From contig NZ_BAEO01000015.1 of the NCBI RefSeq assembly GCF_000314995.1, forward strand, positions 1 to 64,000: a DNA stretch of 64,000 bases, written 5' to 3'. Of this stretch, positions 11,124-48,206 are shown piece by piece. The notes under the pieces were generated by a model. The model was not told where the DNA came from and ran no database searches. It saw only the letters and a list, made by a program, of their open reading frames with translations. The first letter of the stretch is position 1; each line of letters begins with the position of its first letter. Position numbers and translations under genes: made by a program. This stretch comes from Paraglaciecola arctica BSs20135. GTDB taxonomy: Bacteria; Pseudomonadota; Gammaproteobacteria; Enterobacterales; Alteromonadaceae.

Positions 11124-11237
11124 CAGCTTTCCTAAAAATGATGTAAAAGCGCTATAAAATAATAGCACTTTCATTTCTAAACTAACTTATTTTCAGCTAA
11201 AAAATTGCCTACTCATTATTATAAATTAGCACTCGTA

Positions 11238-25724: not shown

Positions 25725-25755
25725 ATTGACAACGCTGTCATTAATCGCATATAAA
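25725..25755 (+). promoter_or_regulatory. Promoter with overlapping NagR-like operator, upstream of chitinase
   Basis: A perfect -35 box TTGACA (25726-25731) and TATAAA (25750-25755) are separated by 18 bp. The -35 box lies within the palindrome ATTGACAACGCTGTCATT (25725-25742), which differs by one base from the NagR box of Alteromonadales as I remember it (AATGACARCGYTGTCATT). Repressor binding here would block RNA polymerase. The transcript would have a leader of about 180 nt before the chitinase. Confidence 0.7.
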
Positions 25756-29790: not shown

Positions 29791-29868
29791 CGATAAAGAA
29801 TTATCGCTGATTGGTGTTTCAGATAAAATTGACTAAAACATGAGAATTATAGTTGCGTTGAAAAGTAA

Positions 29869-31374: not shown

Positions 31375-31412
31375 AATTATTTAACATCGCTATTTGCTCA
31401 TATTTTTCAAAT

Positions 31413-32453
31413 TCAATAGGCTTCTATTTTTGTAATTTTTTTTACGAAGTGATCTTTGACCACCCTAATGTAATCAGGCGACAACTCACCTAATAGATGA
31501 TGCTGATGTTTTGGGATATACGAAACTGGATCAACACCTTGCTTAAACAAATAGTGATCAAACAAACAACGCCATGCATCACGTTGTTTGGGTGTCAGGT
31601 CGCGCATCGCCAAAATGGCGATTTTCATACTATCCAAAAAATTCGGTGAGGTTGCATCTTCGGCAAAAGAACCGTTCCACCAGTAATTCATCAGCCCATT
31701 AATCTTGTCCAACGACTCAACATGATGCCACCAAAGCATGGGTATAAATAAGGCATCGCCGGGGGCTAATTCAACATGGTAAGCATTGTGTAATGCAGTT
31801 TTGAATCTAGGGTAACGATCAAAGTCTGGTTTACGAAGATTGACTAAACTTACTGGCACACCAGCCGGTGTAAACTCAAGAGGTCCAGGATACAAATTGC
31901 TGGTTTGGTCTGGCGCAAATAATGTAAAACGTCTACGTCCAGCGACTACGCAAGCAATGTTATCTGTACCATCATAATGAGTATCAACCACCCCTTCGTT
32001 TCCAACCCATAAACGAGGTTTCACATTGGGGAAAAAATCAGAAGGGTTATCTTCGAGCAATCCTGGAAGAATACTTTCAGTTAACGCGCTTTGCATTGAT
32101 AAAGCAGGCCCCTGCTCTTCATTCTTTAAGTCAATTAAGCGCCTCAAAAATAGGTCTAGCCGCTCTTGTGCACTAACAAAAGTAAAACCGCTTAAATCAT
32201 CGTTATAAAAAAAACGTTTGTCGGCGCATTTATCTTCATTATATGGCGCTGCAGATATAGTGACTTTTTTGCCGTTATAATGTCGACAAAGGTACTCCTT
32301 AAATTCATTCGGAGTTTTTTTAGCGGCCGCCACCATTGGCCAATCACCAGCAAAACCTCTGAGAACTATTGGCTGCTGTTCAGGTACCACTTCATCAAAG
32401 AGCTGCTTAGCTGATAAATCTCGATACTCGGGAATGGCTTTAAAGTTGTTCAT
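31413..32453 (-). CDS. Cupin-like (JmjC-type) protein 1
   Basis: A 346-residue cupin_8/JmjC-like protein of the Fe(II)/2-oxoglutarate oxygenase superfamily. The metal-binding HxD is seen in THYDGTDN and the distal histidine in MLWWHHVES; the AGRRRFTLF segment fits the 2-oxoglutarate-binding arginine region. Proteins of this kind (called Pass1 in regulon studies, as I remember) accompany halogenase homologues and TonB-dependent receptors in sugar loci. It is similar over its whole length to the next gene upstream, showing a tandem duplication. Whether it hydroxylates a protein or small molecule is unknown. Confidence 0.87.
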   Translation of the reverse strand: MNNFKAIPEYRDLSAKQLFDEVVPEQQPIVLRGFAGDWPMVAAAKKTPNEFKEYLCRHYNGKKVTISAAPYNEDKCADKRFFYNDDLSGFTFVSAQERLDLFLRRLIDLKNEEQGPALSMQSALTESILPGLLEDNPSDFFPNVKPRLWVGNEGVVDTHYDGTDNIACVVAGRRRFTLFAPDQTSNLYPGPLEFTPAGVPVSLVNLRKPDFDRYPRFKTALHNAYHVELAPGDALFIPMLWWHHVESLDKINGLMNYWWNGSFAEDATSPNFLDSMKIAILAMRDLTPKQRDAWRCLFDHYLFKQGVDPVSYIPKHQHHLLGELSPDYIRVVKDHFVKKITKIEAY

Positions 32454-32492
32454 ATATTGATATTCGTGTCTCTCATAGAATCGAACACGTGT

Positions 32493-33521
32493 TTATTTTT
32501 GTAGCTTGGCAATGAAATAATCCTTTATCGTTCTGACATCTTTAGCTGATAAATCGCCGAGTATATGCTGCTGATGTTTTGGTATATAAGACCTTGGGTG
32601 TGATTTTGGATCGGGATTTTGATGAAATACATAGTGATCGAACATAGATCGCCACGCATCACGTTGTTTCGGAGTTAAGTCTCGCATGGCCAGCAGTGCT
32701 AGGTTCAAACTGTCAATTGGGCTGGGCGACACTGAGTTTGGCCCTGAAGATCCATTCCACCAGTAATTCATTAACGCATTCACTTTTTCCAATGATTCAA
32801 CATGATGCCACCAAAGCATAGGAATAAAAATGGCATCACCAGGTCCTAACTCAACACTATAAGCCTCAGCTAAGGCATGCTTAAAAAGAGGGTAACGATC
32901 AAAATCTGGATTGTTAAGATCCACTAAACTAGTAGGGGCCCCTGCTGGTGTAAAGTTGAGTGAGCCGGGATATAAGTGACAAGTTTGCTCTGGCGGAAAA
33001 AGTATAAAACGCCTACGACCCGCCACAACACAAGCCACATTATCAGAACCATCATAATGCGCACTCACTATCCCTTCATTTCCAATCCATAAGCGAGGCT
33101 CTAATTCAGGAAAAATATCGGAACAATTTTCATTCACCAAACCAGGTAAAATCTCACTAGTGAGTGAATTTTGCATTGAAATAGCAGGATAAACTTCTCT
33201 ATCAATCAACTCTAAAAGACGGCCTAAAAACAAGTCGACGCGCTCTTCACCACTCAAATAATTGACATCAGTCATATCATCATTGTAAAAAAAGCGTTTG
33301 TTGGCAGAAGGTGGGGCAACAACCATTTTGGTCTTTTTACCGGTATAAAACTGATTCAGGTAAGCGACAAAATCTTCAGGTGTTTTTTGAGCTGCATCGA
33401 CCAACGGCCAATGTTTAGCAAATCCACGTATAACTACGGGGTTTTGTGCGGGTGCAATTTCCTTAAAGAATTGTACTGAGATTAGATTGGAAAACTCTGC
33501 CATGGTTTTATATACCGTCAT
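32493..33521 (-). CDS. Cupin-like (JmjC-type) protein 2
   Basis: A 342-residue paralogue of the downstream gene with the same HxD (AHYDGSDN) and distal HHVES motifs and near-identical segments such as DLTPKQRDAWR. I place the start at the ATG at 33521, which overlaps the stop of the halogenase gene as ATGA and has AAGG upstream; the frame is open to 33557 but that would give a 40-bp overlap. Translational coupling to homologue 3 suggests the halogenase and cupin proteins are made together. Confidence 0.87.
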   Translation of the reverse strand: MTVYKTMAEFSNLISVQFFKEIAPAQNPVVIRGFAKHWPLVDAAQKTPEDFVAYLNQFYTGKKTKMVVAPPSANKRFFYNDDMTDVNYLSGEERVDLFLGRLLELIDREVYPAISMQNSLTSEILPGLVNENCSDIFPELEPRLWIGNEGIVSAHYDGSDNVACVVAGRRRFILFPPEQTCHLYPGSLNFTPAGAPTSLVDLNNPDFDRYPLFKHALAEAYSVELGPGDAIFIPMLWWHHVESLEKVNALMNYWWNGSSGPNSVSPSPIDSLNLALLAMRDLTPKQRDAWRSMFDHYVFHQNPDPKSHPRSYIPKHQQHILGDLSAKDVRTIKDYFIAKLQK

Positions 33522-35059
33522 ATAGTTGCCTTCGCATTTTGATGAGTGGCTTGGCAATTCGCTTGAATATAATCATGATGACTTGGCATTTTTAGCACCG
33601 TAGAACGGATATTTTCAATATTTTTATGCAATGTATTGGCTAAGCCTTGACTATCAAAACCATCTAACAAGGGATGATACTTTTGTGGACGTATTTTCAT
33701 GCCTTCTAAAATGGAGTACCAACTATCACTGGTAAAAAACGGCTCAGTACTATGCTCTATCTGCCCTCTTTGCCTAAATAAACGTATTTTTTCACTGAGT
33801 GAATCAGGAACAGGCATGGTTTGGCACCAACGCCAAAAGTCGCTATCGTCACGACCCGATGTGCAATAATGCAAAATAATGAAATCGCGTATCTCTGTAT
33901 AATCAACATCAATTTTTTGATTAAAGGCTAGCTCGTTGCAAGTGTCAAAATCCATGTCAGGAAAGTATTTAATGAAATGCACTAGGGTTTTGTAAACCAA
34001 ATGAATAGCGGTCGATTCCAAAGGCTCTAAAAATCCAGCAGCAAGGCCTAAGGCTAAACAGTTATTGTGCCAAATTTTTTCACGTTTACCGGTAACAAAA
34101 GGGATGATCTTTGGATTGTTTATCAGCTTACCATTGACACTGTTTAGCAATGTCTCTGTTGCTTGCTCATCACTGCAATGTTCGCTAGAAAAAACATAAC
34201 CATTGCCTGTGCGGTGTTGTAGCGGAATTTTCCACGTCCAGCCCGCTTCACGAGCTGTGGCGATTGTGTAGGGAACTGGATTAGCTACATTTTCTGTTTG
34301 TACGGTAACGGCGCGATTACAAGGCAGATAATGGGACCAATCTTGGTAACCTACCTTCAAGGAGTTTTCTATCAAAAGCCCTTTGAAACCAGTGCAATCG
34401 ATAAAAAAGTTACTTTCGACTATTGAACCATTGTCCAATTCGAGGCTACGAATAAAGTCTTTCTTATCGACATTCACGTTTTTTACTGTTGCTTCTATTC
34501 TTGTTACCCCTCTTTTGTGGCAGAGATCTCGTAAATAACGAGCAACTTGAATCGCATCTAAGTGAAGGGAATGAGCGAAATGTGATAACACCCAATTTTC
34601 AGGCTGTGTTTGATTAGATTGATGTGGGCGCAGCATAAAACGTTCATGTTCGGCCATAATCGCGCTGGGGGAATGATCAACCCAACGACTTGTCTGCCCA
34701 TCAGCAAGTGACTTTAACCAAGCCTGATAAAAATCAAAACCATTGATATCCTTGCCCACTCTACCAAAAGGATGAAAATAGCTTTCCCCTTGGGTTAACC
34801 AATCGTCGAACCGAATGCCTAATTTAAAAGTGGCAGAGGTAGCCTGAATAAATTCTTTTAGGTTAATTTGACTGGCTTGCAAAAAATCCATCATAGATGG
34901 CACGGTAGACTCACCTACGCCGATAGTGGCAATATCAGGTGATTCAATAACCGTAATCTGAATGTTACTGCCTCTTAAGGCGGTTGTAAGTAAAGTCGCA
35001 GCCATCCAACCAGACGTTCCACCACCCACAATACAGATAGATTTCAATGTGTTTTGCAT
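33518..35059 (-). CDS. Flavin-dependent tryptophan halogenase homologue 3
   Basis: A 513-residue halogenase-family protein with FAD motif GGGTSGWMAA, IGVGESTVPS, the active-site lysine K79 in SATFKLGI, GWTWKIP, and the glutamate in LEPLESTAI. In these segments it is closer to characterised halogenases such as PrnA than homologues 1 and 2 are. The ATG at 35059 is preferred to a TTG at 35065; no strong ribosome binding site is visible. It follows the TonB-dependent receptor after a hairpin and overlaps the second cupin-like gene. Confidence 0.9.
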   Translation of the reverse strand: MQNTLKSICIVGGGTSGWMAATLLTTALRGSNIQITVIESPDIATIGVGESTVPSMMDFLQASQINLKEFIQATSATFKLGIRFDDWLTQGESYFHPFGRVGKDINGFDFYQAWLKSLADGQTSRWVDHSPSAIMAEHERFMLRPHQSNQTQPENWVLSHFAHSLHLDAIQVARYLRDLCHKRGVTRIEATVKNVNVDKKDFIRSLELDNGSIVESNFFIDCTGFKGLLIENSLKVGYQDWSHYLPCNRAVTVQTENVANPVPYTIATAREAGWTWKIPLQHRTGNGYVFSSEHCSDEQATETLLNSVNGKLINNPKIIPFVTGKREKIWHNNCLALGLAAGFLEPLESTAIHLVYKTLVHFIKYFPDMDFDTCNELAFNQKIDVDYTEIRDFIILHYCTSGRDDSDFWRWCQTMPVPDSLSEKIRLFRQRGQIEHSTEPFFTSDSWYSILEGMKIRPQKYHPLLDGFDSQGLANTLHKNIENIRSTVLKMPSHHDYIQANCQATHQNAKATI

Positions 35060-35117
35060 AGTCAAACCGTAACTAAATTAATAGCCTTAACATTTTTGGG
35101 AACCTCCAAAATGAAAG

Positions 35118-35175: not shown

Positions 35176-38100
35176 TCAGAAAGTAGCACGAACGGTTAAC
35201 GCATAACGGCGGTCTGTCGTGAAGGAAAACGCATCAGTTTTTACCCCTTGCTGATTTTGTTGGTATTGAGTTTCTGTGTCAGTACCAAGTAAATTACTGA
35301 CTTGTAAACCAACTTTAACGTTTTCATTAATGTTGTAAAAGAAACTCGCATCCATCATGCCTTGATCCTTTGAATATGCCGGAACAAATTCTTCAGACTC
35401 ACGCAAAGTCAAAAGGTACTCTGAACGCCATGTATAGGCTAAGCGGAAGGAAATATCGTCCTTCTCATACATGCCAACAATATTTAGGTTCTGGTCAGAG
35501 TAACCTTGCAATGGTAAGCCTGTAAACTGACGGAAACTATTACGATTGTCGGTAATCGGCACACCAGAACCATTGTATCGAATTTCCTGAGTTGGATTGG
35601 TATTGGAATCTTCCAAGCCGTCTTGGTCAATGTATGTGTAGTTAAACTGCATACCTAAACCACTCCAAACGCCCGGCAACATATCGAAAAACTGGGTGTA
35701 CGAAAACTCCATACCACTAATGGTGCCGTCACCAGTGTTATCTGGTCCATAGGCTGATACTGGGAAGCTACTGCCTGCTACTTCAACCTCTGTCGAAAAC
35801 TGTTTATTTCGAATGATGTTTGACAATTTTTTATGGAACAAACCCACAGTCAATGAACCTACATCAGCAAAATACCATTCAGCTGTTAAATCAAGATTAA
35901 CTGATTCTTCTGGCTCTAAAAAAGCGTTACGTGCGTTAGCACTGATTTCAATATTTTGTAGGTCGACGGTTGGATTAGTTGCTTCATCTTTATCTTCAGA
36001 GGGATCTTGAAGGATCTCTTGGTAATCCAAACTCACCACCATTTTATTAGCCGAATCAACAAGACTTGGATAATAAAGGCCTTTAGACGCGCCGAATCTC
36101 ACTATGAATTCATCAGTAATACCAAAACTAAGGTTTAAGCTAGGCAAAACTGTAGAGTAATCGGTACCGTCTACTGTGCTAGTTACGAAATCCCCCGAAG
36201 CAAGTCCAAAAATACTTGGATATTGATTTTGCATGACTTGGTAAAGTGAACCTGTTTCATCAGTGCCACGCCTAGATGTAGGAGGTAAGCTGATACCACC
36301 GGTAGATTCCAGCTGATAATTAACATAACGTAAGCCGAAATTACCTTTGACTAAGATATCCGACATCTCAACATCAAAATCAGCGCGAACATAAAACTCA
36401 GTGCGTTCTGTGTTACTTGAACTTATATGACGTGGAGCAAAATGACCGAAAACACTATTATTTGAATCGGCATATGACACAGCACAACGGCCGCTTCCGT
36501 CCATTGCGTTGCCTAAAGCACTCCAAGTGCCACAACCATCACGTAAAGTTTGTTCGTAATTTTCAGCTAATTCCATTTTAGGGAACAAAAAGCTGTTGTA
36601 GTCACCCGATAGAGTTTCGCCATTAAAGTGATCAGCAAAACTAATGCTGTCGAATAACTCAGGAACAACTTGTGGTGATGCGTTATAGGAAGCTTGTGCG
36701 TTCCATGGCGTGCCTAGTGCCTGCCAACCTTCATATTCAGTATTACGCACTATCAATTCTTTATCTGAATAATAAAGCCCTGTTTTTATGCCAGTAAAAG
36801 CACCGTCCAGTTTGTACTCCACATCCAACTGAAAAGTATCCGCACTTGCTTCATTGTATTCTTCTTGTTGCATACCGTTAGACATTCGAAGAATTGGATT
36901 GGTGTCAGCTTCGACGTCGGGAGGATTTGAAACATTAGGACTCAAAAACTCAATTGACGGTGTAGACCCTCTTAAATCTAAGAAAAATGGTGCATTTTCA
37001 CCAGTCTGATTGCCATTAATCCGCGAAGTAATCGAGTTGTTGTGAACAATTTGCTCAGAATCAATAGTCTGGTAATCTACTTCAACTGTTATGCGATCAG
37101 TCGGGGTAAATTTCACATTTAGAGCTGTATCTTTAACCGTACTTTCATTGAAGTTAAAACGAGAACGAAACTGCAAAGGTACGTCCGGACTACTTCCGCG
37201 GCCTACACCCGATGTAAGAAAACCATTACCATCAACTGTCAGAGGGCGCCCTTCATCAGCTTCATCGAACCACTGAAGTGCATTGGCCATCCAAGGTTGA
37301 AAACCTTGATCAGCCGGAGTCAATATATATTCTCGCCATTCTAAGGACGCTTTAGAATTGATGTGTTCCAATGTAGCAGTAATCTTCTCGTCAACACTCT
37401 GCCACTGTAAGGCGGCAGTAAAACCTGTGCGACTTCTGTCGTTTTCTGCAGTCGATAATGAGTAACTAGCAGGTGAATAATAAGTGACACCATCAGGTTG
37501 CCCCTCAAGTGCCTCACCTTCAAACGCTGGAACATAGGCTGCTGCATCTTCAGCTGAAAACTGCACTGTATCTTCAAAACCAGCACCACATGCACGCCAA
37601 TCTGCTGCACCAGGAATACAAGGATTAGAATATTGGCCTGCGCTAACGCCAGGGCTCGCTGTTCCCCATTCATCGTAAGAGAAAACATCAACCGGACCAC
37701 GACTGTGGAAATTACCCAAACCAAAACCATCACCACGAGTTTTAAACTCAGAATCAGATGCTGCAACTAATACCCCAAACTTGCCAGAATCAGTATCCCA
37801 GTTATCTGAGAAAAGAGCACTGAACGACGGCGTGGTTTCTTCGCGATAATCAGCATAGTTGGCTTGCGCACTCACCGCAAATAAGCGTTCATCGGTGTCA
37901 AAAGGCTTGCGTGTAATCAAGTTAACTGTGCCAGCAATACCACCAGAAATCAGATCAGCGGTTTGGTTTTTAACCACTTCTACTGCACCCAATAATTCAG
38001 CGGGAAAATCCTCATAGCTTAGTCCGCCATAAGGATTAGCACTAAATGAGTCGCGACCATTAACTTCGCTGCGTACACGGTCCAGACCACGCACTAATAC

Positions 38101-38442
38101 ACTTGTACCTTCATCGGCATAATGTTTTGGATCATCTGATGCCGCGAAACGCTCAATGGTTACGCCAGGTACACGTTGAAGCGCTTCAGTCACAGACCTA
38201 TCAGGTAGCGCACCTATGTCTGATGCAGTAATGACATCTTTTACCGTGTCGGCATACTGTTTCAAAATTTGCGCACTTTGGATGCTTTGACGCATGCCGC
38301 TAACTTCAATGACTTCTATGTTGTCATCTGCATTTTGTGATTCTGCCGTCGCATCTTGAGCTGCAATTGAAGCAGAGAGCGAGCAAGAAATCGCAGCAGA
38401 TATAGCTATTACTAGACGTTTTCTCTTAAATTTATTAGACAT
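35176..38442 (-). CDS. TonB-dependent receptor, chitin/amino-sugar locus
   Basis: A 1088-residue outer-membrane receptor of the TonB-Xanth-Caul type. The signal peptide ends near ASIAAQDA, the TonB-box-like stretch is IEVIEVSGMR, then the plug (ALPDRSVTEALQRVPGV, VLVRGLDRVRSEVNGRD) and the barrel ending in LTVRATF. Receptors of this class import oligosaccharides. Two NagR-like palindromes 280-365 bp upstream and neighbouring chitinase and hexosaminidase genes point to chito-oligosaccharides or their oxidised forms as substrate; this is inference. It heads the unit with halogenase and cupin-like genes. Confidence 0.92.
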   Translation of the reverse strand: MSNKFKRKRLVIAISAAISCSLSASIAAQDATAESQNADDNIEVIEVSGMRQSIQSAQILKQYADTVKDVITASDIGALPDRSVTEALQRVPGVTIERFAASDDPKHYADEGTSVLVRGLDRVRSEVNGRDSFSANPYGGLSYEDFPAELLGAVEVVKNQTADLISGGIAGTVNLITRKPFDTDERLFAVSAQANYADYREETTPSFSALFSDNWDTDSGKFGVLVAASDSEFKTRGDGFGLGNFHSRGPVDVFSYDEWGTASPGVSAGQYSNPCIPGAADWRACGAGFEDTVQFSAEDAAAYVPAFEGEALEGQPDGVTYYSPASYSLSTAENDRSRTGFTAALQWQSVDEKITATLEHINSKASLEWREYILTPADQGFQPWMANALQWFDEADEGRPLTVDGNGFLTSGVGRGSSPDVPLQFRSRFNFNESTVKDTALNVKFTPTDRITVEVDYQTIDSEQIVHNNSITSRINGNQTGENAPFFLDLRGSTPSIEFLSPNVSNPPDVEADTNPILRMSNGMQQEEYNEASADTFQLDVEYKLDGAFTGIKTGLYYSDKELIVRNTEYEGWQALGTPWNAQASYNASPQVVPELFDSISFADHFNGETLSGDYNSFLFPKMELAENYEQTLRDGCGTWSALGNAMDGSGRCAVSYADSNNSVFGHFAPRHISSSNTERTEFYVRADFDVEMSDILVKGNFGLRYVNYQLESTGGISLPPTSRRGTDETGSLYQVMQNQYPSIFGLASGDFVTSTVDGTDYSTVLPSLNLSFGITDEFIVRFGASKGLYYPSLVDSANKMVVSLDYQEILQDPSEDKDEATNPTVDLQNIEISANARNAFLEPEESVNLDLTAEWYFADVGSLTVGLFHKKLSNIIRNKQFSTEVEVAGSSFPVSAYGPDNTGDGTISGMEFSYTQFFDMLPGVWSGLGMQFNYTYIDQDGLEDSNTNPTQEIRYNGSGVPITDNRNSFRQFTGLPLQGYSDQNLNIVGMYEKDDISFRLAYTWRSEYLLTLRESEEFVPAYSKDQGMMDASFFYNINENVKVGLQVSNLLGTDTETQYQQNQQGVKTDAFSFTTDRRYALTVRATF

Positions 38443-38723: not shown

Positions 38724-38741
38724 AATGACAACGCTGTCATA
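38724..38741. promoter_or_regulatory. NagR-like operator
   Basis: AATGACAACGCTGTCATA matches the 18-bp palindrome AATGACARCGYTGTCATT at 17 positions (consensus from memory). It lies between the divergent receptor and DSD1-type genes and may control both. Confidence 0.75.
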
Positions 38742-38790: not shown

Positions 38791-38808
38791 AATAACAACG
38801 CTGTCATC
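38791..38808. promoter_or_regulatory. Second NagR-like operator
   Basis: AATAACAACGCTGTCATC matches the same palindrome with two mismatches. The centre lies 67 bp from the centre of the first site, so a repressor could bind both and loop the DNA. Confidence 0.6.
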
Positions 38809-39037
38809 AGCATCTATATCCTACACAACGTATTTATTGGCAAACAAAACATACAAGTAGATACCAAAACTCTCGATTCCATTTTTTACAACAACAAAGT
38901 TACTAAATAACAATTACTTTATATTGAACTTGTTACTTTTTAACATTAAGCTTAGGTGGAATTCAACAAGTTTTTAGTTTTTTCGATGAATTTCGCCAGA
39001 TGAATTTAAATTGGACGGCTATTTTTGGAGATCGAAG

Positions 39038-40315
39038 TTGCTTAATAGAAATATAGAAAAGAATAACGAAGCCTACTCCCAAGGACGTGCATTTGAAAAA
39101 GGCAGTGGCTGTTTAACAGACTTGAATAATAAGGGCTGGGATCTTCTCGCTGAAGAAGTGAGCTTTCCAATCGCGGTGATTAAGGAAAAACAATTATTAA
39201 ATAATGCTAAATGGATGCAGGAATTTAGTGACAGAGCGTCTGTAAAACTTGCTCCACATGGAAAAACGTCTATGGCTCCAGAGCTATTCAAAATGCAATT
39301 AGAGCAAGGTTGCTGGGGAATGAGTTTAGCGACTGTGCCACAGGTCGTTAATACATTTGAGCATGGGGTTAATCGGATCATACTTGCCAATCAATTAGTC
39401 GGCGCTTATCACATGAAACTGATAGCTGATTTGTTACTGACAACAGACATTGAATTTTATTGTTTTGTTGATTCAATAGAAAATATTCATGCATTAGGTA
39501 AGTATTTTTCAGGCGTCAATGTCTCTTTGAATATCTTAATTGAGATAGGTGTTTTACAAGGTCGATGTGGATGGCGTGATACACAAAATATAGATCCCCT
39601 GCTCGATGCCATAGAGCAGTATCCGCATTTACACTTATGCGGCATTAGTTTTTATGAAGGTGTGATACATGGTAACGATGCAGCCGAAAAAATCGTCACT
39701 TTCATCAACAGTATTTGCACAATGGTGGGTAGGTTATACAGTGAAAATAGATTTGATATCAAAGATATTATTGTAACTGGCGCCGGTTCAGCTTGGTACG
39801 ATATTGTCTCACGGGAGTTATCATCTAACAAAGACACACTAGGGATCAGTTATATTCCTATTATTAGACCTGGGTGCTATTTAATACATGACAAGGGCAT
39901 TTATCAGGCTGCACAAAACGAGATCATTAGTCGCAGTCAACTAGCCTGCGATATTTCTGGTGAATTGATTTCTAATTTAGAACTTTGGGCCTATGTTCAC
40001 TCCGTTCCTGAACCTGGGCTTGCAGTCATTGGTCTAGGAAAAAGGGATGTAGCTTTTGATGCTGGTTTACCCATTCCAGAATATATATACCGCCCAGGCA
40101 ATAAAAAACCTCAAGCGATTGAAGGAGGGTCTGAGGTAATCAATATTATGGATCAACATTGTATGATGACCTTTGGTTCCAAAACATCACTACAACCTGG
40201 CGATATAGTTATCTTTGCAACTTCTCATCCTTGTTTAACCATGGATAAATGGCGGCGGATAGGCCTAATCGACAGTAATTTTGTCGTGAAGAAAACCATT
40301 GAAACATTTTTTTGA
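39038..40315 (+). CDS. DSD1-type PLP enzyme (D-threonine aldolase/D-serine or glucosaminate dehydratase family)
   Basis: A fold-type III PLP enzyme of 425 residues, with an alanine-racemase-like N-terminal barrel and the C-terminal D-serine dehydratase-like domain. The PLP lysine is K76 in LAPHGKTSMAP, and the metal ligands are H397 and C399 in SHPCLTMD. The start is a TTG at 39038, seven bases after a strong GGAG; the frame also opens at a TTG at 39011. Family members cleave or dehydrate D-hydroxy-amino acids; D-glucosaminate dehydratase also belongs here. With RidA and a deacetylase in the same operon, glucosaminate to 2-keto-3-deoxygluconate is the likeliest reaction, by inference. Confidence 0.85.
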   Translation: MLNRNIEKNNEAYSQGRAFEKGSGCLTDLNNKGWDLLAEEVSFPIAVIKEKQLLNNAKWMQEFSDRASVKLAPHGKTSMAPELFKMQLEQGCWGMSLATVPQVVNTFEHGVNRIILANQLVGAYHMKLIADLLLTTDIEFYCFVDSIENIHALGKYFSGVNVSLNILIEIGVLQGRCGWRDTQNIDPLLDAIEQYPHLHLCGISFYEGVIHGNDAAEKIVTFINSICTMVGRLYSENRFDIKDIIVTGAGSAWYDIVSRELSSNKDTLGISYIPIIRPGCYLIHDKGIYQAAQNEIISRSQLACDISGELISNLELWAYVHSVPEPGLAVIGLGKRDVAFDAGLPIPEYIYRPGNKKPQAIEGGSEVINIMDQHCMMTFGSKTSLQPGDIVIFATSHPCLTMDKWRRIGLIDSNFVVKKTIETFF

Positions 40316-40366
40316 TTAAAAAATCAGATGAATTGGCGTTGTTGTTATAACCACAGAGAACAGTAA

Positions 40367-41236
40367 ATGGATATTGTTAATAGTATCAAAGAAGGCTTAA
40401 GGCATTTCAGCCCAGCAGAAGAAAAAGTGGCTCGATTTATTTTGAGTGATCTGAATTTTGCTGCCAATGCTGCAATCAATGAATTAGCAGAAAAAGCACA
40501 GGTTAGCCACGCGACTATTACGCGCCTAGCGAAAACTCTAAATTGTGCAAATGTGCGAGAGTTTAAGTTAAAAATAGCTCAATCGGCCGCAGTTGGCGAG
40601 CGTTTCACAAATGACGACACAATAGAAAAACATGATATTTCTGTTGTATATCAATCTATTAGCGATATTTCATCATTAAATTCAAGACTAATAGAAGACG
40701 AAGTAGTTGAAGCTGCTAGTGAAATAATTTGTGCTGCAAAACATTGCTTAATTTTTGGTGTAGGTGGATGGAGCAGTTTGATGACTCAAGAGTGTCACAA
40801 TCGTTTTTTTCGTTTAGGCATCAACAGCAATTCACACTCTGACCCTATGATGATGCGAATGACTGCGTCCACAGTCGATAAAGATGATGTAGTTATTTGT
40901 TTATCTCTAGGAGGGATAAGCCCTGATGTATTCAGTTCAGCGGTTATTGCTAAGGAGTATGGTGCTCACGTTGTTGCTATTTGTCCTGAAGGCGAGTTGG
41001 CTAAATTTGCAGATTTTCACTTGCCAATAAAAACCCAAGAAAGTGATTACATCTTTAAACCAAGCGCATCTAGATATGTGATGTTAGCGGCCATCGACAT
41101 TTTATCCAGTGAATTAGCTATCAAGAATCAGCGAAAGTCTAGAGAGAAGTTAAGACGTTTGAAAATTCAACTTGATGATCACCGAGGCGAAGATGGCGCT
41201 TGTCCTAACTCAAGTCGATTGCCTTTGGGGGATTGA
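40367..41236 (+). CDS. RpiR/MurR-family regulator with SIS domain
   Basis: A 289-residue regulator with an N-terminal helix-turn-helix (SPAEEKVARFIL, then ELAEKAQVSHATITRLAK) and a C-terminal SIS domain (about 115-255) that binds phosphosugars, such as HexR with KDPG. Here it lies directly upstream of the deacetylase gene with a three-base gap. It probably senses a downstream intermediate of the operon, such as phosphorylated ketodeoxygluconate; this is inference. The sequence before the start (ACCACAGAGAAC) resembles the end of the interspersed repeat. Confidence 0.9.
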   Translation: MDIVNSIKEGLRHFSPAEEKVARFILSDLNFAANAAINELAEKAQVSHATITRLAKTLNCANVREFKLKIAQSAAVGERFTNDDTIEKHDISVVYQSISDISSLNSRLIEDEVVEAASEIICAAKHCLIFGVGGWSSLMTQECHNRFFRLGINSNSHSDPMMMRMTASTVDKDDVVICLSLGGISPDVFSSAVIAKEYGAHVVAICPEGELAKFADFHLPIKTQESDYIFKPSASRYVMLAAIDILSSELAIKNQRKSREKLRRLKIQLDDHRGEDGACPNSSRLPLGD

Positions 41237-41239
41237 AGA

Positions 41240-42733
41240 GTGACAAACGATGCCAATACTTTACCACAGCAATTGGCTATACCCGATGTATTGATCCTCA
41301 ATGGGGATATATTGGATGGCAGCGGTAATCCAGCTATAAAACAAGATATTGCAATCAAAGGCGATAGAATTATTGCTATTGGTAACTTGCAAGACCTGTC
41401 TGCTAATCACGTTATTGATGCTAAAGGTTTAATGTTAGCTCCCGGTTTTATTGATGTGCATACTCATGATGATTTAGAGCTACTGCGCAATCCCAAAATG
41501 CTCAATAAAATCAGCCAAGGAGTGACCAGCGTTATTATTGGTAATTGTGGTATTAGCGCTAGCCCCTACTCCACCAATAAATTGCCACCTGATCCAATCA
41601 ACTTGCTGGGGGAAACAGACGAGTTTTTGTTTAGTTCTTTGCAAGACTACATTGATCAATTTGAGCAATCTCAGCCATACATTAATGTGGCGGCGTTAGT
41701 CGGTCATACTAGTCTTCGGGCACAAGTTATGTCTGACCTAAACAAACCTGCAACAGCACAAGAAATCACTAGTATGGTGAAGATATTTCGGCTTGCTTTA
41801 GTCCAAGGCGCTAAGGGATTAAGTAGTGGGCTTGCGTATCAAAATGCACAGAGTGCTTCAACTACTGAAGTCGCAGCATTAGTGGAGCAACTCACAGAAT
41901 TTAATGGTGTTTATAGTACCCACTTAAGAACTGAATTTGACGGTATTATTGATGCGTTAGACGAGGCTTTTTGGGCCGCAAAACAAGCGAATATCAATAT
42001 TATTATCTCTCATTTGAAGTGTGCAGGGAAAAACAATTGGGGCCGTGCTGATGAGATCACAAAACACATTCAACAGAACCAAAAACATCAGAAAATAAGT
42101 TGTGACTGTTATCCTTATCATGCCAGCTCTAGTACCTTAGATTTAGCGCAAGTGACCTCAGATTTTGATATTTTTATTACCTGGTCAGATCCTCATCCCG
42201 ACAAAGCCAAACAAACGTTACATACCATAGCCGAACAATGGCAAGTTTCTCTACTAGAAGCAGCGCAGAAGTTGCAGCCTGCAGGTGCGGTTTATCACGG
42301 TATGCACGAAGACGATGTACGTAAGTTTATTTCTTTACCTTACAGCATGATTGGATCAGATGGTTTGCCATGCGATCCACACCCTCACCCTCGTTTGTGG
42401 GGCTCCTTTCCGCGCATGTTAGGACGATATAGCCGGGATGAAAACTTATTAAGCATGTCGAAAGCGATCCACAAGATGACAGGGCTTTCGGCAACGGAAT
42501 TTAGCTTAGAACAAAGAGGTTTTATTCGTCAGGGTTATTACGCCGACCTAGTACTTTTTAATCCAGACACTATTGCTGATGTAGCTGACTTTGTTAATCC
42601 AGTCGCCCTCTCAAAAGGAATAGAACAAGTGTGGGTCAATGGGCAGCTCAGTTACCAATCACAAGACGCTGAAGCACAAAGGCCTCTTAAAATTAGTGGT
42701 GCAGGACGATTTTTAAAACACAGTCAAAACTAA
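41240..42733 (+). CDS. D-aminoacylase-type amidohydrolase (probable N-acetylglucosaminate deacetylase)
   Basis: A 497-residue amidohydrolase of the N-acyl-D-amino-acid deacylase family. Metal ligands are visible in DVHTHDD (H74, H76), NCG near residue 103, SHLK, and the catalytic aspartate in MIGSDG. It starts with GTG at 41240, three bases after the RpiR stop. Such enzymes remove acetyl groups from N-acetyl-D-amino acids. Since N-acetylglucosaminate is an N-acetylated 2-amino acid, and the operon carries GH20 and a dehydratase, deacetylation of that compound is proposed. D-amino-acid substrates remain possible. Confidence 0.85.
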   Translation: MTNDANTLPQQLAIPDVLILNGDILDGSGNPAIKQDIAIKGDRIIAIGNLQDLSANHVIDAKGLMLAPGFIDVHTHDDLELLRNPKMLNKISQGVTSVIIGNCGISASPYSTNKLPPDPINLLGETDEFLFSSLQDYIDQFEQSQPYINVAALVGHTSLRAQVMSDLNKPATAQEITSMVKIFRLALVQGAKGLSSGLAYQNAQSASTTEVAALVEQLTEFNGVYSTHLRTEFDGIIDALDEAFWAAKQANINIIISHLKCAGKNNWGRADEITKHIQQNQKHQKISCDCYPYHASSSTLDLAQVTSDFDIFITWSDPHPDKAKQTLHTIAEQWQVSLLEAAQKLQPAGAVYHGMHEDDVRKFISLPYSMIGSDGLPCDPHPHPRLWGSFPRMLGRYSRDENLLSMSKAIHKMTGLSATEFSLEQRGFIRQGYYADLVLFNPDTIADVADFVNPVALSKGIEQVWVNGQLSYQSQDAEAQRPLKISGAGRFLKHSQN

Positions 42734-42763
42734 ACATATTGCAAAAATTTATAGGAGAAAATA

Positions 42764-43159
42764 ATGACAATTAAGCGTTATGGTGCCCAAGGTAGTGAAG
42801 GCACTGGTGGACAACATTTACCCTTTTCCCGAGCAGTCGAAGTGGATGGCTGGTTAAAAGTGTCAGGTCAAACACCTATGCGCAATGGCGAAGTAGTTGA
42901 AGGAAGCATAATTGAGCAATCAAACATAGCCATTGAAAACTGCATAAACATTATGACCGAAGCTGGGTTTAGCCTTGAGCATGTGGTGCATGTGACAGTG
43001 GTGTTAAACGACTCACGATACTTTCAATCATTTAACAAAGTTTTCAAAGAAGTCTTTGGGGAACACCCTCCTGCACGTATTTGCATGGTGGCCGACCTAG
43101 TTGTTGATTGTAAAGTCGAAGTGGACGTCACTTGTTATAAAAAACCTTCAGATAATTAA
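42764..43159 (+). CDS. RidA-family enamine/imine deaminase
   Basis: A 131-residue RidA (YjgF/YER057c/UK114) protein that hydrolyses reactive enamines and imines released by PLP dehydratases. The essential arginine is R105 in PPARICMV, the same number as in Salmonella RidA. Presence in one operon with a DSD1-type dehydratase gives a clear role: completing deamination of the enamine intermediate. AGGAG precedes the start. Confidence 0.93.
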   Translation: MTIKRYGAQGSEGTGGQHLPFSRAVEVDGWLKVSGQTPMRNGEVVEGSIIEQSNIAIENCINIMTEAGFSLEHVVHVTVVLNDSRYFQSFNKVFKEVFGEHPPARICMVADLVVDCKVEVDVTCYKKPSDN

Positions 43160-43203
43160 ACGAATTATGTTTGCCATACGTTAAACGCCAGAGCTAAATC
43201 ATC

Positions 43204-44622
43204 ATGAATCACTTGTACATAGTTGTATTTATTCTTTACATCTTAGCCATGATTGCGCTGGGTTGGTTTGTTTCTCGGAAACAAAAAACCGGCGACGATT
43301 TTTTATTAGCTGGGCGCAACGTTCCCTTTATTTTGTCATTAGGTACAACTGTTGCGACTATGGTGGGAACTGGCTCATCAATGGGCGCTGTTGGTTTTGC
43401 TTATGAAAATGGCTGGGCTGGCGCTTTATATGGCATTGGTGGCTCAATTGGTATTTTGTTGTTAGCGTGGATTTTTGCACCTGTTAGGCGTCTTCAGTTC
43501 ACTACTATGAGTGAAGAGCTTGCACATTATGTCGACAACAATAAATACGTAAAAAACACCATAGCTTTCATTATTTACGCCGCGAGTATTGGTTGGCTAG
43601 GTGCGCATATTATCGGTGGTAGTTTATATTTGTCTTGGTTAACCGGGATTGATGTCTCTTCAACAAAGCTTATCATTGCGTTGAGTTTTGCGGTTTATGT
43701 GGTAATTGGTGGATACACCGCCGTTGTTTGGACTGACTCAATTCAAGCCTTAATTCTATTTACTGGTTTTATTCTTATGGCCTATTTTTCCTTGGATTAT
43801 GTGGGGGGGTGGGACAGTATGCTTGCGGCTCAACCCTCACAAAATATCAGTTTATTCGCCGTAGAGGCCATAGGTATTATGCCTGCCATCTCTCTTGCAC
43901 TAGCCATTTTAGTGGGCGTATTAGCCACACCATCGTTTCGACAACGTATTTATTCTGGGAAAAACGTCACCAGCATCCGAAAGTCATTTATTTATTCTGG
44001 CGTTCTTTATTTAGGCTTTTCATTGATCCCAGCCATTATTGGCATGAGTGCATATGCAATCACAAATGAATTAGACAATGCAGCTTTTGCGTTTCCACAT
44101 ATTGCACTGAATGTTATGCCTTTGGCCTTAGGCGTGCTCATCATTATTGCTGGTATTTCAGCTACCTTATCCAGCGCGAGTTCAGATGCTATTGCCGGAG
44201 TCAGCGTTTTGTTAACTGATATCTATCAAATAATTTTCAAAAAGTCACCTAGTGCTAATAACGTACTCACCTTTTCAAGAATTGGCTTGATACTCACCAT
44301 TGGCATTGCTTTGCTGCTGGCGCTCATGTCAAACAATATTATTTCTTACATTACGCAAATGATAGCCGTACTTATGTCTGGCCTATGTGTTTGTGGTTTA
44401 TTAGGGCGACTCTGGCCTGCCTATAATTGGCAAGGGGCAATGGCCAGTTTATTAGTAGGTATGCTCACAGCCATAGGTGTTAGTGCTTATCCACCATGGA
44501 ATGACTTCTTAGGTAATTCAATTCTACCTGCCATAATCAATTCCGCGTTAGCTGGCTACATAGTCACTTTAATCTCACAAAAATCAAAGTCTTTGGCGCG
44601 CTCTTGTGAAAGCAACTCTTGA
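43204..44622 (+). CDS. Sodium:solute symporter (SSS family)
   Basis: A 472-residue inner-membrane symporter with about 13 helices and the SSS features GRNVPFILSLGTTVATMVGTGS near the N-terminus and the conserved STLSSASSDAI-like segment around residue 320. It would bring the substrate of the operon into the cytoplasm with sodium, as is common in marine bacteria. In context the cargo is probably N-acetylglucosaminate or a short chito-oligomer acid, by inference. Confidence 0.9.
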   Translation: MNHLYIVVFILYILAMIALGWFVSRKQKTGDDFLLAGRNVPFILSLGTTVATMVGTGSSMGAVGFAYENGWAGALYGIGGSIGILLLAWIFAPVRRLQFTTMSEELAHYVDNNKYVKNTIAFIIYAASIGWLGAHIIGGSLYLSWLTGIDVSSTKLIIALSFAVYVVIGGYTAVVWTDSIQALILFTGFILMAYFSLDYVGGWDSMLAAQPSQNISLFAVEAIGIMPAISLALAILVGVLATPSFRQRIYSGKNVTSIRKSFIYSGVLYLGFSLIPAIIGMSAYAITNELDNAAFAFPHIALNVMPLALGVLIIIAGISATLSSASSDAIAGVSVLLTDIYQIIFKKSPSANNVLTFSRIGLILTIGIALLLALMSNNIISYITQMIAVLMSGLCVCGLLGRLWPAYNWQGAMASLLVGMLTAIGVSAYPPWNDFLGNSILPAIINSALAGYIVTLISQKSKSLARSCESNS

Positions 44623-44676
44623 TGATTTTTATAGGTAGCAAACTTTGCATTCATTTAATTTGAGAGGTGAAAAATA

Positions 44677-47280
44677 GTGTTAGGTGTTTTCATAACTAAG
44701 CTTTGTGTGTTTTTGGTATTATTGCCTTTTTTGGTAGAAGCCAAAGTTGCAGACAATGTATGTTTATTGCAATTAATGCCGTGCCCAGAAAAAGTGACAT
44801 TAAAAACCGGGCATTTTTATTTCAAGCAGCAACTGAATATTTATATTGAAGGCATGAGTGATAAACGGCAACAAGCCGCGTTAACGGGTTCAACAACTCA
44901 ACTTAGTCGATTGGAATATTTTGATTTCAAACATTTTAATATCGTGGCCAGTCAAGAAAAGGCAGATATTGCCATCATTGTTCAAAACAAAATGGCAAGT
45001 CAAAAGCAGTCAGGAGCTAATTATAGGCATCCAAGCTTAGGAGACGATGAAAGTTATCAATTAACAATCTCCCAAGAATTAATATTTATCCAAACAAATA
45101 CTGAATTTGGGGTTATGCATGCCCTAACTACATTAGTGCAACTTATTTATGCTGCAGATGAAAACGTTCATAAGTCTGATACTCACTTAAAAGCTGTTTT
45201 AACCACTTTAGAGTTACCTCAGTTACTCATTGAAGATAAACCTGAATATAGATGGCGAGGCTTGTTAATTGATAGTGTTCGTCATTTTATTCCTATATCT
45301 GACATTAAACGGCAACTTGATGGTATGGCCGCAGCTAAATTAAACGTTTTTCATTGGCACTTAAATGACGATCAGGGCTGGAGGATTGAGTCAAAGCATT
45401 ACCCTAAATTGCATCTCATGGCTTCTGACAATTTGTATTACACCCATGAGGAAATTAAAGGTGTAGTGGCTTATGCCAGTCTCTTAGGCATTCGTGTTGT
45501 GCCTGAACTTGATGTACCAGGCCATGCATCCGCCATTGCTGTCGCATACCCTGAATTTATAGCAGAGAAAAAAAGCTATGCCATGGAAAGACAATGGGGA
45601 GTATTTGAACCTGTTCTTGATGTGAGTGATGCAAAGGTCTATCAGTTTATTGAAGATTTAGTTGCTGAATTCACCCTATTGTTTCCTGATAACTATATGC
45701 ACATTGGGGGGGATGAAGTTAATCCTAAACAATGGCTAAATAACGACAATATCAAGAGATTGATGCTGAATAAAAACCTAGCCAACAGTGATGATTTACA
45801 CCATTATTTTAACGCCAAGGTGCAGGATATATTAACAAAGTACCAACGTAAAATGGTGGGTTGGGACGAAATTTATCATCCACATTTACCTAAAGATATC
45901 GTCATACAATCTTGGCGAGGTTTAGAGTCGTTGAATAAATTCGCTAATAGTGGTTATCAAGGCGTGTTATCAACGGGGTTTTATATCGACCAACCTCAAT
46001 ACAGTGCCTACCATTATCGTAATAACCCGAAGACTAATATTGATATTGAAGCATCAGCTTCCCAAAGCACAATTTCACCCAATACTGGAGATGACAAAAA
46101 TACTCATTATCGCACTTGGGAATTAACCATACCAAGGTTAAAAGGGTCTGCAGTTAAGGGGAACTTCACCCTAATCACTAGGATAGACGGCAACAAGGAT
46201 CGGCAATTAAGCGGCTATTTAAAACTAAATGATAACGCTTTTCAAAAGGTATCAATCCATGCCCCTGTAACTACTTTAAGCAGCAAAATACTTGTTTTCT
46301 CATTAGATAGTTGGATGGGACCATTACGCTTTGAATTAGATTTTCCAAAGCCTTTTATTTCTTCTCAAACGAGTCTAACAAATAACACATTAACAACCGC
46401 TACGCCGAGGAACAACCGGCTGTTTATTGGCAATGCTTTTTATCCACTTATTGCTCACGAATTAAAAAATCCAGCGCCACAAAATGTACCCTTAGCTCCA
46501 CAACTAAAACCTAACAACACAAAAAATATTTTAGGGGGAGAGGCGACACTTTGGTCTGAATTGGTCACTCAAAACAATATTGACATACGCACCTGGCCAC
46601 GATTATTTGTGATTGCCGAACGCTTGTGGTCAAAGCCGCAAATAAACAACCTTGATAACATGTACCAACGTCTATTTTTTATAGATAGATATTCTGAAAT
46701 CATCCTAGGATTGAAACATAAAGAACAACAGCGAAAAGGATTTTCGGCTCTACTTAATGATCATAATACTGACGAAAACATCCATGCTTTGATGCACTTA
46801 GGGAAATTAATTGAACCTGCGCATTATTATACTCGGCACCATATAAAACACCAGCTAGGTCAATACCACCAACTTGCTGCACTGGATGATTTTGTAGATT
46901 TTCTAGCGGTTGAAAGTTTCGAAATTATTGAATTAACTAATTTTATTGAGGCTTATCAAAAAGGAAACAAGTCTGTGTTATCAAACATAAAACTTAAGGT
47001 GAAAGCATGGCAAGAAAACCAAATAATATTAAACCGCATTGTCATTCAAAGCTCTATATCTTCTAGCTTTAAAGCATTAATAAAAGACGTCGAAGTGTTT
47101 AATCATACGGCAGAACATATTGTTGGGTTTTGTAGCAATAAGGTGTTAAACCCTAAACATACTTTCGCCCAGCTGAGTCAACAATTGCAACAACGACAAG
47201 AACAACAAAATGAAACTGTGATTGCGGCGATCCCGTTATTCCAGACATTGTTGACTAGTTGCCAAGTGGCAAATAAATAA
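44677..47280 (+). CDS. GH20 beta-N-acetylhexosaminidase with inserted domain
   Basis: An 867-residue exported glycoside hydrolase family 20 enzyme. It begins with GTG after an AGAGGTG site and a signal peptide (cleavage near VEA/K). An N-terminal GH20b domain precedes the catalytic barrel from about residue 195 (RWRGLLIDSVRHFIP, FHWHLNDDQGWR), with the catalytic pair D346-E347 in GGDEV. About 170 residues rich in beta strands (roughly 445-610) are inserted before the usual GGEATLWSE (E622). Enzymes of this type remove terminal N-acetylglucosamine from chito-oligomers by substrate-assisted catalysis, and would here leave the oxidised end unit. Confidence 0.92.
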   Translation: MLGVFITKLCVFLVLLPFLVEAKVADNVCLLQLMPCPEKVTLKTGHFYFKQQLNIYIEGMSDKRQQAALTGSTTQLSRLEYFDFKHFNIVASQEKADIAIIVQNKMASQKQSGANYRHPSLGDDESYQLTISQELIFIQTNTEFGVMHALTTLVQLIYAADENVHKSDTHLKAVLTTLELPQLLIEDKPEYRWRGLLIDSVRHFIPISDIKRQLDGMAAAKLNVFHWHLNDDQGWRIESKHYPKLHLMASDNLYYTHEEIKGVVAYASLLGIRVVPELDVPGHASAIAVAYPEFIAEKKSYAMERQWGVFEPVLDVSDAKVYQFIEDLVAEFTLLFPDNYMHIGGDEVNPKQWLNNDNIKRLMLNKNLANSDDLHHYFNAKVQDILTKYQRKMVGWDEIYHPHLPKDIVIQSWRGLESLNKFANSGYQGVLSTGFYIDQPQYSAYHYRNNPKTNIDIEASASQSTISPNTGDDKNTHYRTWELTIPRLKGSAVKGNFTLITRIDGNKDRQLSGYLKLNDNAFQKVSIHAPVTTLSSKILVFSLDSWMGPLRFELDFPKPFISSQTSLTNNTLTTATPRNNRLFIGNAFYPLIAHELKNPAPQNVPLAPQLKPNNTKNILGGEATLWSELVTQNNIDIRTWPRLFVIAERLWSKPQINNLDNMYQRLFFIDRYSEIILGLKHKEQQRKGFSALLNDHNTDENIHALMHLGKLIEPAHYYTRHHIKHQLGQYHQLAALDDFVDFLAVESFEIIELTNFIEAYQKGNKSVLSNIKLKVKAWQENQIILNRIVIQSSISSSFKALIKDVEVFNHTAEHIVGFCSNKVLNPKHTFAQLSQQLQQRQEQQNETVIAAIPLFQTLLTSCQVANK

Positions 47281-47318
47281 TATGCGATATTTACTATAAC
47301 CTTCAAAGAGAGTTTACG

Positions 47319-48206
47319 ATGAAAATAATGATGCTTATCAGCATGTTTTGCCTGTTTGGCTGCGCTAATGGGAAGTCAACAGAAGATACAGTCTTGTATC
47401 AAAGTATGGATTGGGTAACTGATGGTGTCTTTACTCAGGGCATCGAAGGGCCGGCAGTGGCTCTAGATGGCAGCCTATATGCAGTCAACTACCAAAAAAA
47501 TGGCACTATTGGGCGTGTAAGCGGTAAAAATAAAGTAGCGCAATTTATAGAATTACCCAATGACTCCATTGGCAATGGCATCCGTTTTGATAAGCAAGGC
47601 AATATGTATATTGCAGATTATATAAATCATAATATTTTGATTGTTAATACTAACAAATTAAGCGGCTCATTGATTAACAAAGTGAATGTCTATGCGCACT
47701 CCCCTTTAATGAATCAACCTAATGATATTGCAATAACTGACCAAGGAATTATATTTGCTAGTGATCCAAATTGGGCAAAGGGTGACGGAAATATTTGGCG
47801 GATCGGAAAAGATCGCCAAGTGATATTATTAGAAAGCGATATGGGAACAACTAATGGCATTGCTGTCAGTCCTGATAATAGCGTTTTATATGTCAATGAG
47901 AGTGCGCAACGCAATGTATGGCAATACCAGTTGGACGGTGAAGGTAATATTAGCCATAAAAAATTGCTGATTAATTTCCCTGATTTTGGCTTAGACGGAA
48001 TGAGAACCGACCAGCAAGGAAACCTATATATTGCACGTTATGGAAAAGGTGTGATTGCTGTGGTTTCTGCCGAAGGAAAGCTATTGCGGGAAATTAACCT
48101 CAAAGGTAAATTTCCAACCAATGTTGCATTTGGTGGTGATAATAACAAACAAGTATTTGTAACTATGCAAAAACGCGGAGCCATTGAATCGTTTATCATT
48201 GAATAG
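47319..48206 (+). CDS. SMP-30/gluconolactonase-type lipoprotein
   Basis: A 295-residue beta-propeller of the SMP-30/gluconolaconase/NHL type with a lipobox LFGC (C15), so it is lipid-anchored in the periplasm. Segments such as GNGIRFDKQGNMYIADY, QPNDIAITDQG and TNGIAVSPDNSVLYVNES carry the metal-binding Asn/Asp residues. SMP-30 enzymes hydrolyse sugar lactones. C1-oxidation of chitin yields a lactone, so opening it to the aldonic acid would suit the operon. This is the last gene of the unit. AGAGAG precedes the start. Confidence 0.85.
   Translation: MKIMMLISMFCLFGCANGKSTEDTVLYQSMDWVTDGVFTQGIEGPAVALDGSLYAVNYQKNGTIGRVSGKNKVAQFIELPNDSIGNGIRFDKQGNMYIADYINHNILIVNTNKLSGSLINKVNVYAHSPLMNQPNDIAITDQGIIFASDPNWAKGDGNIWRIGKDRQVILLESDMGTTNGIAVSPDNSVLYVNESAQRNVWQYQLDGEGNISHKKLLINFPDFGLDGMRTDQQGNLYIARYGKGVIAVVSAEGKLLREINLKGKFPTNVAFGGDNNKQVFVTMQKRGAIESFIIE

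Follow-up and report, generated by a model that had tools for sequence, protein, structure and literature searches.

A predicted lactonase-bearing variant of the ong cluster for C1-oxidised chitin in Paraglaciecola arctica

Introduction

Which substrate is served by an operon that joins a D-aminoacylase-like deacetylase and a relative of the D-serine deaminases with a GH20 hexosaminidase and an SMP-30 protein? The question is raised by seven genes in a 64,000-nucleotide stretch of DNA from Paraglaciecola arctica BSs20135 (GCF_000314995.1; contig NZ_BAEO01000015.1, positions 1 to 64,000), hereafter the window, and the answer proposed here is that they very probably form an ong cluster for C1-oxidised chitin, the N-acetylglucosaminate (GlcNAc1A) pathway, in a lactonase-bearing variant. 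The pathway itself is known; what is new is the variant, namely the proposed lactonase arm, the predicted displacement of the deacetylase OngB by an M81 protein, and the existence of OngB-bearing genomes without an AA10 lytic polysaccharide monooxygenase (LPMO). The evidence consists of gene content and order, diagnostic residues, tree position, gene fusions, shared DNA motifs, and searches that found neither AA10 in the genome nor kdgK in the operon.

The published ong cluster of Pseudoalteromonas prydzensis is described as eight genes, single deletions of which, except those of ongOT-1 and ongR, impair growth on GlcNAc1A or GlcNAc-GlcNAc1A (Jiang et al. 2022; PMC9537276). For homologues of the proteins discussed here, the activities of OngA, OngB, OngC and KdgK, the effects of knock-outs and the repression by OngR are reported as demonstrated (PMC9537276; PMC12017989).

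The ong operon of P. arctica

The seven open reading frames all lie on the forward strand between 39011 or 39038 and 48206, separated by gaps of 3-54 bases. In gene order, their products match D-ser_dehydrat with Ala_racemase_N, HTH_6 with SIS (RpiR), Amidohydro_3, Ribonuc_L-PSP (RidA), SSF, Glyco_hydro_20 and SGL (SMP-30), each over the Pfam cut-off, so that the seven same-direction genes described in an earlier, sequence-only reading of this DNA are all found, with their families, where it had placed them. Its further statement that the active-site residues are intact holds for the four proteins covered: the DSD1-type enzyme has PHGK and HPC, the deacetylase HTH, NCG and SDG, the GH20 protein GGDE and the SMP-30 protein EGP, PND, TNG and DGM, motifs that we take to mark the respective active sites, and the cavity of the deacetylase, described below, is complete.

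The first gene, ongC (39038..40315, with possible TTG starts at 39011 and 39038), is predicted to encode a DSD1-type pyridoxal phosphate- and zinc-dependent deaminase of D-glucosaminate (GlcN1A), which would convert GlcN1A to 2-keto-3-deoxygluconate (KDG) and ammonia; its product is 62% identical to the Colwellia protein and 69% to that of genome G134. There follow ongR (40367..41236), for a MurR/RpiR-type repressor; ongB (41240..42733), for a predicted GlcNAc1A de-N-acetylase with a D-aminoacylase-like fold; ongD (42764..43159), for a RidA-family enamine/imine hydrolase; and ongIT (43204..44622), for a putative sodium:solute symporter (SSS) of GlcNAc1A. Next is ongA (44677..47280), whose product would be a periplasmic GH20 exo-hexosaminidase, with an OngA-type insertion inside the barrel and the GH20 match in two stretches; it is 41% identical to OngA of Pseudoalteromonas sp. 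CF6-2 over 758 amino acids, compared with 27% over 380 amino acids to the nag-type GH20 of its own genome. The last gene, for which the name ongL is proposed (47319..48206), would encode a secreted SMP-30 lactonase, perhaps a lipoprotein in view of its lipobox-like LFGC. The insertion in the OngA barrel, at about residues 453-600, is seemingly missing from the nearest PDB homologue, 6yhh.

The deacetylase OngB

The best PDB match of the window OngB is PpOngB (9kb1, E 8.9e-183; Wang et al. 2025; PMC12017989), with the D-aminoacylase chains 1rjp and 1m7j at 5.2e-124 and 7.6e-124. PpOngB, PaOngB and PfOngB are reported to deacetylate GlcNAc1A only and to be inactive on N-acetyl-D-amino acids, and specificity is ascribed to Ser292 and Gln298, where D-aminoacylases have Thr at 292 and Leu or Arg at 298 (PMC12017989). 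All 15 PpOngB cavity residues checked are present in the window protein, among them Ser292, Gln298 and the shared contacts to the carboxylate and acetamido groups. It has the fold and metal site of the D-aminoacylases (1m7j, 3gip), but their Thr and Leu/Arg are Ser and Gln here. In an alignment of 45 OngB and 17 outgroup sequences, the other 44 OngB rows share the 15 residues except at the variable position 348, and Gln298 appears in none of the outgroup rows. The window protein differs from its counterpart at the P. prydzensis DSM 14232 locus in being about 59% identical to it, and in the 62-row tree (midpoint root) it stands beside the sequences of G134 and Colwellia sp. D2M02 (100/99).

The general names given by Pfam and NCBIfam, together with a D-serine deaminase (3gwq) as best PDB match of OngC, would suit an operon for D-amino acids, composed of a D-aminoacylase and a D-serine/D-threonine deaminase with the GH20 and SMP-30 genes as passengers. 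The residues at 292 and 298 and the remainder of the cavity are, however, of the OngB type, and GH20, RidA and SSS proteins accompany OngB across genera; the D-amino-acid operon is rejected on the cavity residues and is regarded as highly improbable.

Comparison with known ong clusters

In Pseudoalteromonas sp. CF6-2 the TonB-dependent receptor is followed by ongC, R, B, D, IT, kdgK and A; in the window the order is receptor, ongC, R, B, D, IT, A and the SMP-30 gene, with identities to the CF6-2 proteins of 42% (C), 58% (R), 59% (B), 77% (D), 60% (IT) and 41% (A). The first six genes thus keep their order in Pseudoalteromonas, which argues that it is not due to chance. The sequence-only reading had seen in the operon a form of the oxidative chitin route of Pseudoalteromonas to which a lactonase has been added, and gene order, the substrate residues and tree position of the deacetylase, and a lactonase gene that recurs beside, and is even fused to, a GH20 partner all agree with it.

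The operon resembles the cluster of P. prydzensis ACAM 620 (Jiang et al. 2022; PMC9537276) in the order and direction of ongC-R-B-D-IT-A, as seen in the Pseudoalteromonas loci compared, in the divergent TonB-dependent receptor and in the active-site residues of OngB. It differs in having no kdgK in the operon, an added SMP-30 gene, a receptor of another subtype accompanied by halogenase and cupin genes, and in that the genome search gave no AA10 LPMO.

The SMP-30 lactonase

The SMP-30 model, derived from four sequences (mean predicted local distance difference test score, pLDDT, 79), is a propeller whose top fold matches are lactonases, a Rhodopseudomonas lactonase and a Caulobacter xylonolactonase. 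Residues E43, N135, N179 and D226, presumably the Glu/Asn/Asn/Asp metal ligands of the family, are conserved in all seven clusters compared (the window included), and positions E21/N120/N175/D229 of DFPase are named in PDB titles among the fold matches. N-termini are signal-like in all seven and lipobox-like in the window and L015 only. By fold and metal site the protein agrees with the SMP-30/gluconolactonase family, and lactonase activity is predicted from the model; the sugar lactonases RPA3624 (8djf) and Caulobacter xylonolactonase (7plb) share with it the beta-propeller and the metal-site residues, but are only about 20-22% identical, and the window protein differs in being apparently secreted and tied to a GH20.

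Orthologues of 60-66% identity lie directly after ongA in L013, L015, L017, L021, L125, L131 and the P. piscicida locus L205. Within the bases fetched for each locus, the gene was not found in L012, L014, L019, L020, L022-L026, L126-L130 or L132-L144; L018 ends before ongIT, and in L016 the sole match, of 32%, precedes ongC. Mapped on the OngB tree, the trait requires two changes and was thus gained, lost or transferred two or more times. Among 394 genomes sampled from the order, 14 have an SMP-30 match at E 1e-20 and 13 a member of the same subfamily (at least 48% identity, a 32% match in G194 being left out): seven OngB-bearing genomes of the window's family (f1), four other f1 genomes and two of f16. 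Every OngB-bearing f1 genome found thus carries the subfamily, three of the seven within the ong cluster, and among the genomes listed it occurs in four of 25 f1 genomes without OngB.

At 23 of the 27 SMP-30 loci examined a GH20 gene is adjacent or fused. The GH20 is of OngA type and adjacent at nine (the window, L013, L015, L017, L021, L125, L131, L175, L205) and of OngA type and fused at 11 (L183, L184, L196-L204), the latter all from one genus and not independent of one another. PF00728 and PF08450 occur together in 55 of the 120 listed homologues of the fusion (120 of 981), five of which also have PF00182 (GH19). A lactonase fused to the GH20 of the pathway, in five proteins also to GH19, points to a lactone-opening step within the pathway.

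GlcNAc-1,5-lactone itself is a presumed inhibitor of GH20 enzymes. A literature check on this point gave only sulfonylhydrazone and semicarbazone derivatives of it, reported as nanomolar inhibitors (PMC8834866), and C1-oxidised chitin ends are described as occurring as lactones and acids (PMC12017989). Neither the 2022 (PMC9537276) nor the 2025 (PMC12017989) ong study uses the terms lactonase or SMP-30 in its main text, and searches of the open-licence PubMed Central literature, which do not imply absence from print, found nothing that links GlcNAc1A with a lactonase or that describes a hexosaminidase-SMP-30 fusion in Rheinheimera.

The proteins that combine GH20, SMP-30 and GH19 chitinase domains are P0044, P0045, P0047, P0052 and P0053. 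At L175 (G302), positions 8782-13467 hold ongC, ongA and the SMP-30 gene together, with no ongB, ongR, ongD or ongIT within the 18 kb fetched. Lipoprotein-like oxidases with FAD_binding_4 and BBE domains adjoin SMP-30 genes of the same subfamily at L182:6666-8186 and L179:9801-11315, and the PDB relatives of the L182 oxidase include EncM and a chitooligosaccharide oxidase.

An M81 protein in place of OngB

The fusion is found in 11 of 31 genomes of genus g13, which is probably Rheinheimera/Arsukibacterium. All 11 fusion-bearing clusters hold ongC, then ongR, ongD, ongIT and an M81 (MlrC-type) metallopeptidase gene, then the fusion and then a receptor, the M81 gene occupying the position of ongB (L183, 7334-8791; L184; L196-L204). 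OngB is found in none of the 31 genomes at E 1e-20, and the same query matches 35 of the 394 in the order sample. MlrC has defined zinc ligands, hydrolyses an amide bond and is predicted to be cytoplasmic (PMC12474180), and all five ligands are conserved in the 11 M81 proteins. We infer that M81 deacetylates GlcNAc1A in this genus as a predicted second GlcNAc1A deacetylase; if so, a second enzyme family would carry out this step, and a family known from microcystin breakdown would gain a sugar-acid substrate.

Evidence against the assignment and the source of oxidised chitin

A number of findings weigh against the assignment or parts of it. In the tree, all 45 OngB sequences fall into a single group, but its support of 94/94 is slightly below the tool's mark of 95 and the outgroup branches are long, for which reason the OngB claim is rested on residues and gene order. 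The operon also contains no kdgK, a gene reported as needed in P. prydzensis (PMC9537276), and the gap between ongIT and ongA is only 54 bases. The CF6-2 KdgK query is, however, unmatched in the fetched bases of L015, L016, L023, L127-L130, L132, L134, L136, L137, L140, L143 and L144, where a distant kinase could be missed, and a kdgK in the cluster is therefore not universal. A KDG kinase and a 2-keto-3-deoxy-6-phosphogluconate (KDPG) aldolase, sought elsewhere in the genome as the sequence-only reading had suggested, were both traced: two of the six PfkB matches are KDG kinase homologues, 34-37% identical to ong KdgK proteins, with uronate genes (L155) and an alginate-lyase-like gene (L156) as neighbours, and the sole KDPG aldolase found lies in a zwf-pgl-edd-glk-eda (Entner-Doudoroff) operon, all neighbours being named from translations. 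With these encoded elsewhere, use of KDG is plausible. The other PfkB proteins, C11:36727 (L004, L153), C22 (L006), C11:293915 (L008) and C26 (L009), were set aside as not KdgK-like or weakly so.

The AA10 LPMO sought by the same reading was not found: PF03067 has no match in the window's genome (rated 100% complete, 72 contigs), in a search that matched one of 14 control genomes. The 2022 study counted genomes with both ong and lpmo as having a complete oxidative chitin pathway (PMC9537276), and here the second part of that pair is absent from the matches. With a single GH18 chitinase match in the genome (25943..27193, forward strand) and no AA10 found, the source of GlcNAc1A in this strain is left unsupported. 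The case is shared by other genomes, AA10 being present in 24 and not found in 11 of the 35 OngB-bearing genomes of the order sample, all rated at least 99% complete, as draft assemblies in which a gene could still be missed; by family, it occurs in 15 of 15 (f21), four of four (f12), three of three (f11), one of four (f18), neither of two (f25) and one of seven (f1). It occurs in 11 of the 12 genomes behind L015-L026, Colwellia sp. D2M02 included and Aestuariibacter sp. A3R04 being the one without, and the SMP-30-bearing ong clusters belong to genomes with AA10 (G244, L015, L017, L021) and without it (the window, G134).

Since no AA10 was found, the strain probably either lives on oxidised chitin that other organisms produce or possesses a different C1-oxidising enzyme, scavenging of oxidised oligosaccharides being the simplest reading. 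Oxidised chitin would then be, for OngB-bearing genomes without AA10, a shared good in marine communities. A flavin adenine dinucleotide (FAD) oxidase acting on N-acetylglucosamine (GlcNAc) or chito-oligosaccharides could instead supply the oxidised amino sugar, with SMP-30 opening the lactone product. The missing AA10 of this genome and of the 11 in 35 would fit, as would the SMP-30 gene that adjoins a lipoprotein-like FAD_binding_4 and BBE oxidase in G330 (no OngB) and G052 (OngB, no AA10), and the PDB relatives found for the G052 oxidase include the chitooligosaccharide oxidase 6y0r; yet EncM and other non-sugar oxidases outscore 6y0r, and scavenging also accounts for the missing AA10, so that an oxidase source is held to be unlikely.

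The distribution of SMP-30 is likewise uneven. No SMP-30 match was seen in the bases fetched for the P. prydzensis loci L022 and L026, the subfamily occurs in none of the 28 OngB-bearing genomes outside f1, and in four of the seven within f1 it lies outside the ong cluster. Three of the 27 loci pair it with a nag-type GH20 only 23-26% like OngA (L177, L178, L181), and four have no GH20 neighbour, with a BBE-type FAD oxidase at L179 and L182 and neither at L176 and L180. Aldonolactones are also noted to open spontaneously under alkaline conditions (PMC12017989). The SMP-30 protein might act outside the oxidative route, in hydrolytic chitin use or on another lactone or ester, as the GH20 genes of nag type by their neighbours in G061, G172 and G183, the bare loci of G321 and G016 and the many OngB-bearing genomes without SMP-30 would allow; but the gene stands directly after ongA in eight OngB-bearing clusters, is fused to an OngA-type GH20 in the M81-type ong clusters, and in G330 and G052 neighbours a BBE-type FAD oxidase, some relatives of which oxidise sugars. 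A role outside the route is judged rather unlikely.

Proposed pathway

Under the preferred assignment to the GlcNAc1A pathway, oxidised chito-oligosaccharides of the form (GlcNAc)n-GlcNAc1A would enter through the TonB-dependent receptor, and OngA would trim GlcNAc units from them in the periplasm, the GlcNAc released being left to the nag locus (L152), which holds NagX, GH20, NagP, NagA, NagK and NagB (named from translations, NagA also by search). The secreted SMP-30 protein would open the 1,5-lactone of the oxidised end, so that the free aldonic acid could be taken up, and may also keep the lactone from blocking the GH20. GlcNAc1A would then be imported by OngIT and deacetylated by OngB, and OngC would deaminate the product to KDG, with OngD, as its RidA family suggests, removing the enamine/imine; a KDG kinase and a KDPG aldolase from other loci of the genome would complete the route, under repression by OngR.

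A wider proposal builds on this, and we consider the chances for and against it to be evenly balanced: that the pathway has a secreted SMP-30 arm by which GlcNAc-1,5-lactone ends are opened and the exo-hexosaminidase is shielded from its own inhibitor, that its deacetylases are interchangeable, a cytoplasmic M81 protein replacing OngB in Rheinheimera/Arsukibacterium, and that OngB-bearing genomes without AA10, this one included, consume the oxidised chitin of others or use a FAD-oxidase route.

Candidate regulatory sites

The palindrome TGTTA-N5-TAACA at 38931..38945 (forward strand), before the first ong gene, is the sole match in the 64 kb, where 0.15 are expected and 15 of 100 shuffles contain one. 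In all but one of 22 clusters it stands ahead of the first ong gene, the 21 being the window, all 15 of L012-L026 (in L013 before the receptor) and five of the six loci L125-L128, L131 and L133, L125 having it with a mismatch only. It precedes the ong genes in none of 14 clusters from other families (L129, L130, L132, L134-L144; L134 has one match far from ongC), and the 1,176,128 bases of L027-L094, from other bacteria, contain two matches. OngR is reported to repress ongOT-1 and ongCRBD in P. prydzensis (PMC9537276), which fits this position, and the motif is a candidate OngR operator, present at this place only in clusters from the family of the window and its relatives.

A second palindrome, TGACAACGCTGTCA, lies at 38726..38739 before the receptor, with another copy, bearing one mismatch, at 38793-38806, and at 25727..25740, 203 bases before the GH18 start. 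It has five matches in the window counting both strands, in three places, against 0.04 expected, and the nag locus of the same genome has it four times without a mismatch. From a consensus that we take to be that of NagR, these are inferred to be NagR-type sites; GlcNAc would then control the chitinase and the receptor, and OngR the inner pathway. NagR of Shewanella is described as a LacI-type repressor (PMC2996990). A claim of NagR-like sites in genus g13 was rejected, as the matches there lie close to the beginning of the receptor coding sequence.

The receptor module and neighbouring genes

The conserved locus extends beyond the seven genes originally delimited, as the receptor and halogenase/cupin genes belong to it too. 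The divergent TonB-dependent receptor (35176..38442, reverse strand; Plug and barrel), which likely imports oxidised chito-oligosaccharides, occupies the position of ongOT-1 and is of another subtype, with local matches of only 27-36% to OngOT-1 of CF6-2; all ong genes but ongOT-1 are reported as highly conserved (PMC9537276). It is 75% identical to the receptors of the Colwellia locus L015 and the G134 locus L125, 57-59% to those of L013, L131, L183 and L184 and 79% to that of L202. Beside it, at 28198..35065, Pfam identifies three Trp_halogenase-like and two cupin_8 genes, one (28198-29790) on the forward and four on the reverse strand; of the reverse-strand genes, the two for halogenases and one for a cupin have counterparts matching at 74-81% in L015 and L125/L157, and the full set of four has counterparts matching at 75-82% in L202. 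The nag locus of this genome likewise has related halogenase-like genes beside it.

The GH18 and MocA genes are not conserved in the 20 kb covered upstream of the G134 cluster. Downstream of the operon, positions 50137-51879 (reverse strand) encode a 580-amino-acid protein built of two very similar halves.

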